Shown one piece after another: positions 1,693-5,426 of a DNA stretch of 64,000 nucleotides. This DNA comes from Erysipelotrichaceae bacterium (GTDB lineage Bacteria > Bacillota_I > Bacilli_A > Erysipelotrichales > Erysipelotrichaceae): NCBI GenBank assembly GCA_029101345.1, contig JAQXQU010000017.1, positions 1 to 64,000 on the forward strand, in the 5' to 3' direction. The translations under genes and the position numbers were made by a program. Within the stretch, counting starts at the first letter, position 1, and each line of letters starts with the position of its first letter. Below the pieces are notes generated by a model. That model saw nothing but the letters and a program-made list of their open reading frames with translations. It was not told the DNA's origin and did no database searches.

Positions 1693-2067
1693 ATGAAGAA
1701 AATCTGGCCAGCAATGATGTTATCACTATTGTTAAGTTCTTGTAGCAATACTCCTTCCTATCAGCATGTATCAATGTCAGAAGCCATTGACTTAATGAAT
1801 AGGGAAAGCTCCTATGTCATTCTTGATGTGAGAACTTATGATGAATATCAACAGGGCCATATCCCTGGTGCTATTGTTGTACCAAATGAAACTATTGGCA
1901 CTTCAGAAATACCTGAACTGCCTGATAAGCAACAGATGATTCTGGTTTATTGCCGCAGTGGCAATCGCTCAAGACAGGCGGCAGCCAAACTGGCTAAGTT
2001 AGGCTACAGCAATGTTATTGAATTTGGTGGCATTATTGATTGGCCACTTGAAATAGTCAAGGATTAG
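1693..2067 (+). CDS. Rhodanese-domain lipoprotein
   Basis: Lipobox LLSSC; rhodanese YVILDVRTYDEYQQGHIPGA and active-site loop CRSGNRS; start trimmed from 1672 to the ATG after GAGGTG. Confidence 0.9.
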   Translation: MKKIWPAMMLSLLLSSCSNTPSYQHVSMSEAIDLMNRESSYVILDVRTYDEYQQGHIPGAIVVPNETIGTSEIPELPDKQQMILVYCRSGNRSRQAAAKLAKLGYSNVIEFGGIIDWPLEIVKD

Positions 2068-2097
2068 ATCTTCTGCTTAGCAGAAGATTTTCTTTGA
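2068..2097 (+). terminator. Rho-independent terminator
   Basis: ATCTTCTGCttaGCAGAAGATTTTCTTT. Confidence 0.75.
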
Positions 2098-2153
2098 TTG
2101 AGTGTATATAACATAGGTGTTATTATGCTAATATGGATATTAAGGAGGTTTTT

Positions 2154-3035
2154 ATGAAAGCTTCAGAGATTATCAACCAAGCTTGTGAACATCAGGGTGT
2201 TTCCAAGGCTGAACTCGCAAACAGAGTAGGAATCTTTCCTTCTTCGCTATATCGCAAACTCGCTAATGAAAGCATGACTCTTAATGAATTGCAGAAGTAT
2301 CTCCAAGCAATTGGTGTTACTGCCCATGTTGAACTGGTATATGATGACGGCACTGCTTATAATTCAACAGAAAACCATGCTCAGCTTCTGAACCATTTGG
2401 AAATCATGAAAAAGGAAATGGACTTGAAGGAGAATGCTTTGCAACTGCAAAGAAAGGCCTTCAAGGATTTGAGAACTGATTTGAATAGTGCTGTTGGTTA
2501 TCTGGAATTAGGTCAGAAGAATGAGAAAAAGACCAGTGAATGTCTGGCTAAGCTCAAGAATGTCCATTCCAGCATGGGAAGGACAATTGCCTATGCTTTA
2601 GGTGAAGGATTTGGTGAAGAGGAAGAAATTGTCGATGATTCATCAATTGAAGCATTGGAAGGCAAAAGGGTGCTGGTGGTTGATGATAACAAGATCAATC
2701 AGGAAATCATCAGCGATCTTCTGGAAGAATATGGACTGATGGTTGAGACTTCAGATAATGGCGAAGAAGCCATTGATAAAGTTATCAAGAATGATCCGGG
2801 CTATTTCAACTTCATTATCATGGATATTGAAATGCCAGGCATTGATGGTTATGATACGACAACTCGCATTCGCAAGATGCCTAATAGAATCAGGGCCAAT
2901 GTGCCTATCATTGCCCTTTCAGCCAATGCCAATCCTGAAGATCGTCGCAAGGCTGCCCTTGTGGGTATGGATGCTTTCTTGGCAAAACCAGTCGATTCCC
3001 ATGTTCTTTTGAGCGGACTAGCTAAACTTCAGTAA
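2154..3035 (+). CDS. XRE-like HTH / degenerate DHp-like / response-regulator receiver protein
   Basis: N-terminal HTH (KAELANRVGIFPSSLYRKLANESMTLNELQKYLQAIG); middle AFKDLRTDLNSAVGYLEL resembles an H-box; C-terminal REC (VLVVDDNKINQ..IIMDIEMPGIDG..ALSANA..AKPV); start trimmed to the ATG after AAGGAGG. Confidence 0.85.
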   Translation: MKASEIINQACEHQGVSKAELANRVGIFPSSLYRKLANESMTLNELQKYLQAIGVTAHVELVYDDGTAYNSTENHAQLLNHLEIMKKEMDLKENALQLQRKAFKDLRTDLNSAVGYLELGQKNEKKTSECLAKLKNVHSSMGRTIAYALGEGFGEEEEIVDDSSIEALEGKRVLVVDDNKINQEIISDLLEEYGLMVETSDNGEEAIDKVIKNDPGYFNFIIMDIEMPGIDGYDTTTRIRKMPNRIRANVPIIALSANANPEDRRKAALVGMDAFLAKPVDSHVLLSGLAKLQ

Positions 3036-3067: not shown

Positions 3068-5398
3068 ATGAAAAATACCAAAAAAGAAGATATGGACTTT
3101 TATATTATTGATAATGATTTCAAGCTCCTTTATTTTAACCAGAATGTTAAAGACCGCTATCCTGATGCAAGGGTCGGCAATTTCTGCTATCAAGCCACAA
3201 TGAATAGGGACAAGCCCTGCAATCATTGCCCTATAGCCCATCATGGTGACAATTTCGCCCCAACTTTCTATGATCCTTATTATGAAGGATTTATTGATAC
3301 GATGTTTGCGGATATTGGGGATGGCAAATATGCTGTTACCTGTCGTGCTTCCCAAATAGATGCCAGAAGTCTCTTCTATCGTTTGAAAAGCGATAAGGAA
3401 AGACGTCTTGCAGAGCCAGATGTTGATTATGAATCAGATAATGTAGGAATTATTGGTGGATATTGTGAAGAGGGCTTCCCTCTTTATTATGTCAATGACA
3501 AGATGGCAAAGATGTTAGGCTATGATGATGTTGCTGATCTGAAAAAAGGCATTGATGGCAAAGTCGCCAATTCCATCTATCCGGAAGATATGCCAAATGT
3601 CATCAAGGATCTAGGCGACCACTATTATCCGGGCATGCGATATGAAACATCATATCGTACTGTAAGAAAAGACGGCAGCATCTTCTGGACTATTGACCGT
3701 GGTGAAGTAATTGAAACCATTGATAAACGCCTGGCTATCATCAGCACTTGTCTTGATGTCACAAAGTATGTTGAAGAGGAAAAGGCCCGAGAACAGGAAT
3801 CAAGAGCCATTGATGCCAGGAACAGGATGCTCTCGGATATCATCAAAATCCTTTATGACTATAGCCTGACGGTTGATGTCAATACTGGATCATTTGATTT
3901 GATAATGGGAAGAAATCATCGGCAATTGCCTGAAATCATCAAGGGCTTTAACACTTATCAGGAAATAATGGAATACTTCATGGCCATGGTTGATGAAAGC
4001 CAGCTTTCCAGGGCAAGAGAGTTGCTGCTGCTGGAAAACTATGCTAACAGGAAGGATCTTGATGGTTTCGTTGGTTCAGAAGTCTTTATTGGCAATACGC
4101 CAGAAGGACAAAAATACCAGGAAATCAACGTTTTCCATGTAGTGGATGAAAAGGGAAACAGCTTTATCAAAATTCTCGGGCGTGATGTTACTGATGCTCA
4201 TGAAAAGGCTGATGCCAAAGCCCAGCTTGCCATTGCCAAAGCTTCAAGCAAAGCTAAATCAGACTTCCTGTTCAATATGTCCCACGATATCAGAACGCCA
4301 ATGAATGCCATCATCGGTTTTACTGACCTCTTATCAAAGCACCTGGATGATAAGGAATTGGCAGCTGATTATCTTGATAAGATTAAAACTTCAAGTGACT
4401 TCATGCTTTCCCTTATCAATAATGTGCTGGAAATGGCTAGAATTGAAAGTAGCAACTCAGAACTGAATGAAGAGCATGGCAACATCAATCATTTCCAGAA
4501 GACCATTAGTGCAATGTTCTACTCAATGCTCAAGGACAAGAATCTGAACTTTGTTATAGAAAACCATGTTAAACATCCAGATATCATCTGTGACAAAACC
4601 AAGTTCCGTCAGATCATTCTCAATATCCTCAGCAATTCAATCAAATATACAAAAGAAGGTGGAACCATTAGAATGGTCACTGATGAGATGGAATGTGAAA
4701 AAGAGGGACATGTCCGCATAAGAACAACTATCAGCGATAATGGCATTGGCATGTCAAAAGACTATTTGCCTCATATCTTTGATGAATTCTCTCGTGAGAA
4801 AACGACAACGGAAAGTGGTATTTCCGGTACTGGCTTAGGAATGTCAATTGTCAAAAGGCTTGTTGATCTGATTGGCGGCAGTATTGAGCTGGAATCAGAA
4901 GCTGGTATAGGTACAAGATGCACTTTGATTTTCACTCATAAAGCCGCACCAATGAATGAGGATGACCATGAAGATAGTGTCAAAAATACATCCTTTGACT
5001 ATGAATGCATCAAAGGCAAAAGAATATTGATTGCTGAAGACAATGATCTTAATGCAGAAATTGCCATGACTCTATTAGAAGAAAGTGGTTTGCTAGTTGA
5101 AAGGGCAAATGATGGTGCTGAATGCCTGAGAATGATCAAGGAAGCAGAAGAAGGCTATTATGACCTGATTCTTATGGATATTCAGATGCCAAATATGAAT
5201 GGCTATGAAGCAACAGGGGCTATTAGAAAGCTTGATAATCCTAAAAAAGCCAATATCAGGATTGTAGCCATGACGGCTAATGCATTTGAAGAAGACAAGC
5301 AGAATGCCTATAAGGCTGGTATGGATGGCCACATCGCCAAGCCAATCGGAATTGACAAATTCATTGGGCTGCTAGCAGAAAACCTAACTTGGAAATAG
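3068..5398 (+). CDS. Hybrid sensor histidine kinase (PAS-PAS-HisKA-HATPase-REC)
   Basis: H-box FNMSHDIRTPMNAIIGF, N-box ILSNSIKYT, G-box GTGLGMSIVKRLV, REC LILMDIQMPNMNG. Confidence 0.95.
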   Translation: MKNTKKEDMDFYIIDNDFKLLYFNQNVKDRYPDARVGNFCYQATMNRDKPCNHCPIAHHGDNFAPTFYDPYYEGFIDTMFADIGDGKYAVTCRASQIDARSLFYRLKSDKERRLAEPDVDYESDNVGIIGGYCEEGFPLYYVNDKMAKMLGYDDVADLKKGIDGKVANSIYPEDMPNVIKDLGDHYYPGMRYETSYRTVRKDGSIFWTIDRGEVIETIDKRLAIISTCLDVTKYVEEEKAREQESRAIDARNRMLSDIIKILYDYSLTVDVNTGSFDLIMGRNHRQLPEIIKGFNTYQEIMEYFMAMVDESQLSRARELLLLENYANRKDLDGFVGSEVFIGNTPEGQKYQEINVFHVVDEKGNSFIKILGRDVTDAHEKADAKAQLAIAKASSKAKSDFLFNMSHDIRTPMNAIIGFTDLLSKHLDDKELAADYLDKIKTSSDFMLSLINNVLEMARIESSNSELNEEHGNINHFQKTISAMFYSMLKDKNLNFVIENHVKHPDIICDKTKFRQIILNILSNSIKYTKEGGTIRMVTDEMECEKEGHVRIRTTISDNGIGMSKDYLPHIFDEFSREKTTTESGISGTGLGMSIVKRLVDLIGGSIELESEAGIGTRCTLIFTHKAAPMNEDDHEDSVKNTSFDYECIKGKRILIAEDNDLNAEIAMTLLEESGLLVERANDGAECLRMIKEAEEGYYDLILMDIQMPNMNGYEATGAIRKLDNPKKANIRIVAMTANAFEEDKQNAYKAGMDGHIAKPIGIDKFIGLLAENLTWK

Positions 5399-5400
5399 AA

Positions 5401-5426
5401 AATGCCTTCATTTGAAGGCATTTTTG
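5401..5426 (+). terminator. Rho-independent terminator
   Basis: AATGCCTTCatttGAAGGCATTTTT. Confidence 0.85.

Follow-up and report, generated by a model that had tools for sequence, protein, structure and literature searches.

A family of predicted XRE-type response regulators with a DHp-like module that lacks the phospho-histidine

Introduction

Immediately upstream of a hybrid histidine kinase gene in an Erysipelotrichaceae bacterium lies an open reading frame whose product, P0001, raises the question of what a predicted DNA-binding protein might do with a DHp from which the phospho-acceptor histidine is missing. The window, by which we mean the whole stretch of DNA that was analysed, comprises 64,000 nucleotides (contig JAQXQU010000017.1 of assembly GCA_029101345.1, positions 1 to 64,000). 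A sequence-only reading had described P0001 as a kinase-derived protein in which an XRE-type HTH is followed by a dead DHp and a receiver, and had suggested that it heterodimerises with the adjacent kinase through the dead DHp and receives phosphate on its receiver. Here we present an analysis of its domains, relatives and gene neighbourhood.

The gene and its domains

The features of the locus, all on the + strand, are as follows.

2066..2090, +, terminator-like hairpin belonging to the upstream gene (terminator scan)
2142..2148, +, Shine-Dalgarno sequence AAGGAGG (from the sequence)
2154..3035, +, P0001, HTH-pseudoDHp-REC protein of 293 aa (ORF, Pfam; family of seven ungapped 293-aa proteins)
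2154..2360, +, XRE/Cro-C1-type HTH unit, residues 1-69 (HTH_26 at residues 8-56, E 8.4e-5, above cut-off; colinear in alignment with stand-alone XRE proteins of ~75-80 aa)
2361..2447, +, helical linker, residues 70-98 (AF2 helix from residue 73; poorly conserved, 3/29 columns invariant)
2448..2609, +, pseudo-DHp, residues 99-152, KDLRTDLNSAVGYLEL ... second helix to ALGE (DHp profiles, AF2 hairpin, Foldseek)
2463..2465, +, codon of K104, the phospho-His position (family alignment, DHp register)
2661..3032, +, receiver domain, residues 170-293, with D177, D178, D224, S256 and K278 (Response_reg at residues 173-287, E 4.1e-26; catalytic residues kept in 7/7)
2823..2825, +, codon of the phospho-acceptor D224 (invariant in the family of seven)
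3068..5398, +, hybrid histidine kinase: PAS, HisKA with H406 (4283-4285), HATPase, REC (Pfam)
5400..5423, +, inverted repeat AAATGCCTTC/GAAGGCATTT followed by a T-rich stretch, the probable terminator of a two-gene unit (read directly from the sequence; absent from the terminator scan listing)

Translation starts at the ATG at 2154, and the same methionine begins the alignment in all relatives. The gap between the stop codon and the ATG of the window kinase (3068) is 32 nt and, since the hairpin at 2066-2090 precedes the pair and the inverted repeat at 5400-5423 follows it, the two genes appear to form a single transcription unit.

With its Cro/C1-type HTH, seen both by Pfam and in the alignment with XRE proteins, P0001 has the hallmark of an XRE transcription factor; HTH_26 was also matched in the other three family members scanned. 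It likewise has what defines a response regulator, namely a receiver with acidic pair, phospho-Asp, S/T and Lys, together with an effector domain. HATPase_c was matched neither in P0001, which in this respect is no histidine kinase, nor in the other family members scanned with Pfam. Pfam and NCBIfam have no model that spans the entire HTH-pseudoDHp-REC architecture, and the full-length AF2 model of P0001 is poor outside the receiver.

Relatives and conservation

Full-length P0001, searched against 295 genomes of the order and 392 of the phylum, retrieved hybrid-kinase receivers only and no relative; the short open frames among these hits proved on inspection to be kinases or kinase fragments and, in one case, an OmpR-type regulator. 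The N-terminal 165 aa, used as a single-sequence query, had no match in the genome contigs or viral contigs searched, and tblastn against plasmids gave receiver-type matches only, all of <60% identity. A scan with the XRE alignment led to a protein of 293 aa in genome G651 (locus L104) which aligns with P0001 without a gap at 51% identity. Searches around G651 then yielded members in G724 and G808, followed by G909 and G855, and finally G1022. The layout that the sequence-only reading had proposed looking for elsewhere is thus found in six full-length relatives, all of 293 aa. By a family-level search of 273 genomes, the window's genus included, the long form of the regulator gene occurs in the window genome (G000) only.

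The seven proteins align over 293 columns without a gap, with a full-length identity to P0001 of 51-53% (three measured). By domain the identity to P0001 is 51-55% in the HTH, 48-54% in the pseudo-DHp and 56-60% in the receiver, and 24-34% in the linker (residues 70-98). Across the family the residues at the phospho-His position are K, R, R, K, Q, R, R, never His, while the position of the H-box Pro is Asp once and Glu six times; the sequence-only reading of His to Lys and Pro to Asp therefore holds as regards the loss of His and the acidic replacement of Pro, but Lys as such is not conserved and Asp is peculiar to P0001. R107, T108, L110 and S112-Y116 are invariant and residue 105 is always acidic. 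In the receiver (D/E)177, D178, D224, S/T256 and K278 are kept in all seven members.

Spo0B and ChpT are HPt or DHp-type phosphotransferases with a conserved His. The seven-member alignment contains no invariant His anywhere, which sets the P0001 family apart from proteins of this type and makes an HPt-like role unlikely. In a tree the receivers of the family form one group among those of hybrid kinases, with moderate support (65/96), and lie apart from the OmpR-type regulator. This grouping fits an origin in which a hybrid kinase would have lost its ATPase domain and gained an XRE head.

A further XRE-REC fusion, at L086:5741-6736, was rejected as a family member, being different and apparently independent. 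It is 332 aa long and open at the contig end, has a different receiver, and no H-box was seen in it.

Is the middle region a DHp?

The Pfam HisKA model matches residues 105-136 of P0001 at an E-value of only 0.032, below its cut-off. When residues 1-169 were used as a phmmer query, the matches beyond the protein's own genome comprised stand-alone XRE proteins, aligned to residues 1-70, and true kinases, aligned at their H-box to residues 78-146 (E 3e-4, one genome). A DHp HMM built from 39 kinases in the retrieved loci, the neighbouring window kinase being left out, scored residues 58-168 at 19.8 bits, the highest value in 5000 shuffles being 11.7. Comparison by hhalign of the seven-member profile with that of the 39 kinase DHps gave 96.5%, an E-value of 9.4e-10 and a score of 52.0, while 200 column shuffles did not exceed 18.8 and the reversed alignment scored 10.8. 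Although hhalign places a four-residue gap at NMSH, an ungapped scan finds that a single register fits the H-box in 7/7 members, with residue 104 on the phospho-His and D109 on the Pro. In an AF2 model made from the single sequence, residues 70-165 fold into a hairpin of two helices (pLDDT 86.7). Among natural proteins, Foldseek matches this hairpin best to histidine kinases, at an E-value of about 1, which is not significant and is common for short helical queries; against viral models Foldseek gave nothing useful.

We therefore had to weigh whether the resemblance to an H-box is a chance feature of a generic coiled-coil hairpin in the middle of the protein, in which case P0001 would be an ordinary XRE-REC fusion. 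Pfam coiled-coil families do match family members at similarly weak E-values, and the Foldseek result on short helices would suit this explanation. Against it stand the wide separation of the hhalign score from its shuffled controls, the single register, conserved columns that are the H-box core, and the succession of DHp and receiver, which is the order of hybrid kinases; we regard it as highly improbable. On profile homology and H-box register, residues 99-152 are a predicted DHp/HisKA-like hairpin, in which K, R or Q takes the place of the phospho-acceptor His in every member.

The proposal that the H-box of P0001 lines up with that of kinase DHps is accordingly borne out beyond chance by the 39-kinase HMM, by hhalign and by the shuffle controls, and the profile search that had been suggested gives a clear match even though Pfam HisKA falls short. 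Neither of the findings named in advance as telling against it, a lack of DHp profile match or homologs without H-box alignment, was encountered: the match to the DHp profile is genuine, and every homolog can be aligned across the H-box. It was also correct that the HATPase is absent and that the next domain is a receiver like those of hybrid kinases, with its catalytic residues all kept. The sequence-only reading is thus supported as regards a kinase-derived DHp with neither phospho-His nor ATPase, the receiver after it, and linkage to hybrid kinases in 6/7 loci.

Gene neighbourhood

Four of the genomes (G808, G909, G855 and G1022) share one gene order: the pseudo-DHp regulator gene is followed by that of a ~625-aa lipoprotein bearing a 5_nucleotid_C domain, and this in turn by a hybrid kinase gene (dCache, HisKA, HATPase, REC). 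The G855 lipoprotein also matches SBP_bac_1 at E 5e-5, below the cut-off of that model. The order in G651 is kinase, regulator gene and, at the contig end, a lipoprotein of a second subtype; G724 has the regulator gene and a second-subtype lipoprotein, again at a contig end. In the window the regulator gene adjoins the PAS hybrid kinase, with no lipoprotein beside it. A hybrid kinase is thus part of the cluster at six of the seven loci, the contig of the seventh (G724) ending after the next gene; lipoprotein, kinase and regulator occur together at five (G808, G909, G855, G1022 and G651), and kinase and regulator only in the window. No HPt was seen in the cluster. The transmitter of the window kinase shares 41-43% identity with its counterparts in the partner kinases of four other loci and about 30% with the G651 one, and, judged by its sequence, the kinase at 3068-5398 is not of the conserved partner type.

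Lipoproteins of ~625 aa with the 5'-nucleotidase C-terminal domain were observed at L156:1289-3160, L157:7416-9611, L158:5914-7797, L146:5501-7402, L160:1032-2903 and L163:4457-6301, each beside a hybrid kinase, and two of the six have recognisable solute-binding matches. Such lipoproteins are possibly sensors of a nucleotide-like ligand.

Both lipoprotein subtypes are also encoded in the window genome, on other contigs, and behind each lies a hybrid kinase of the type that is the conserved partner. The lipoprotein on contig C98 is 72-74% identical to the first subtype, and that on C81 is 73-76% identical to the second and matches SBP_bac_8 above cut-off. With GC contents of 0.398 (C98) and 0.383 (C81) these contigs resemble the window (0.409), which gives no indication of binning contamination, though assembly contamination is 4.4%. 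Contig C98 breaks off within a dCache hybrid kinase, and C137 opens within the final part of a kinase that is likewise of this type (L160, L162); a contig break may have divided a single gene between the two.

Among 36 genomes of the window's genus the lipoprotein family was found in the window genome only. In the sample of 81 genomes from the G651 genus, the lipoproteins at least 80% identical to the G1022 query were those of G909 and G855, both holders of the regulator gene, while relatives at 36-53% identity mostly lay in genomes without it. This co-occurrence supports, without proving, a functional link between regulator and lipoprotein, the samples being small and the genomes related.

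Proposed function

We consider it probable, if far from settled, that P0001 belongs to a family of response regulators, small but conserved, that are phosphorylated by one or more hybrid kinases and in which the dead DHp acts as a homodimerization and receiver-docking module. The phosphotransfer route, the homodimer, the docking, the DNA target and the ligand are what we infer in this scheme. The DHp histidine of a hybrid kinase (H406 in that of the window) would be autophosphorylated, and P0001 would receive the phosphate on D224, either straight from the kinase or by way of an HPt encoded at another locus. With no acceptor residue, the pseudo-DHp would be unable to pass phosphate on. It may instead form the DHp-type four-helix bundle of a homodimer, holding two HTH units and offering the receiver-docking face of a DHp. 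Phosphorylation of the receiver would then alter its packing on the bundle, and with it the HTH geometry and DNA binding. In four of the relatives the input may come from the solute-binding/5'-nucleotidase-C lipoprotein acting through the dCache hybrid kinase.

The heterodimer of the sequence-only reading, in which the pseudo-DHp would pair with the DHp of the partner kinase and tune its activity, DNA binding being secondary, draws on the kinase origin of the module and on its position beside hybrid kinases. The neighbouring kinase, however, varies between loci to the extent given above while the pseudo-DHp stays conserved, and XRE-type DNA-binding proteins usually act as dimers with themselves. 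For a DNA-binding protein that is itself dimeric, a DHp homodimer is the simpler arrangement; the heterodimer is not favoured, and we think it unlikely.

The residues [DE]xxT form the phosphatase motif of HisKA kinases. As residue 105 is acidic and T108 is present in 7/7 members, the module could have kept this motif without the His, and would then speed the removal of phosphate from the receiver of P0001 itself or from that of the kinase. This explanation, which we hold to be improbable, is weakened by DivL, a comparable His-less DHp protein that lacks phosphatase activity and stabilises its phosphorylated partner (PMC4211667).

More tentatively, and returning to the homodimeric regulator, the dead bundle might dock its own phosphorylated receiver as DivL docks DivK~P, thereby setting the spacing of the XRE heads; the HTH-pseudoDHp-REC proteins may be a class serving solute-sensing hybrid kinases which otherwise have no adjacent regulator. 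For many of the hybrid histidine kinases encountered in these gut Bacillota no adjacent partner regulator is apparent, and the family supplies a candidate output protein. Because the same layout recurs in six relatives, beside genes for sensor kinases or nutrient sensing, P0001 is probably an output protein for such sensors, and of a type not described before. In these seven proteins selection appears to keep the H-box and remove the His; the docking and dimer roles of a DHp would here be naturally separated from phosphotransfer.

Comparison with known systems

The best published parallel to the pseudo-DHp appears to be DivL of Caulobacter, whose DHp has Tyr in place of the phospho-His, with the H-box surroundings kept as in P0001, and in which binding of the receiver partner depends on two residues of the same helix, R553 and Y562 (PMC4211667). 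By their spacing from the His site these residues would correspond to R107 and Y116, both invariant in the family, a correspondence of numbering in an ungapped helix and not of sequence alignment. DivL binds a receiver without phosphotransfer (PMC4211667), a likeness which for P0001 rests on the proposed docking. Unlike P0001, DivL retains its ATPase and PAS domains, has neither an HTH nor a fused receiver, and is not DNA-binding.

The hybrid histidine kinases of the same bacteria (HisKA-HATPase-REC) share with P0001 the types and order of DHp and receiver, and their receivers group together; P0001, however, has neither the ATPase nor the His, and has an N-terminal XRE HTH. Classical response regulators of the OmpR, NarL and AraC/YesN types also combine a receiver with an HTH and lie next to a kinase, whereas in P0001 the HTH is N-terminal and of XRE type, and a dead DHp separates it from the receiver. 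The clusters that contain all three genes resemble the CuaDSR solute-binding three-component system (PMC10384115) in encoding together a solute-binding lipoprotein, a membrane sensor kinase and a DNA-binding regulator. This likeness is one of gene content; the clusters differ in that the kinase is a hybrid with its own receiver, the lipoprotein has a 5'-nucleotidase-C domain and the regulator is of XRE-pseudoDHp-REC type.

P0001 is a protein of a known kind, the response regulator, in a new architecture. No description of the HTH-pseudoDHp-REC architecture was found in the literature searched, though absence there does not prove novelty. In one published survey of two-component proteins, sequences that lacked the conserved His or Asp were left out (PMC4558063), and dead-DHp domains would tend to be missed in surveys filtered in this way.

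Stand-alone XRE genes beside kinases

Stand-alone XRE proteins, 25-34% identical to the P0001 HTH, are encoded directly before a kinase in three genomes of the window's family and in one of its genus. In G126, G292 and G214 the start of the kinase touches the stop of the XRE gene, and domain scans identify the kinases of G126 and G292 as full hybrid kinases. The presence of an XRE gene before a kinase in several genomes makes XRE plus hybrid kinase a recurring pair in the family of the window; the fused P0001 ties the XRE head and the hybrid-kinase parts together in one protein. Loci with a stand-alone XRE gene before a hybrid kinase are L085 (G126), L087 (G292) and L079/L029 (G010). At L088/L028 (G214) the kinase frame after the XRE gene enters an Mfd helicase-like stretch and then a receiver, representing either an assembly chimera or a broken gene.
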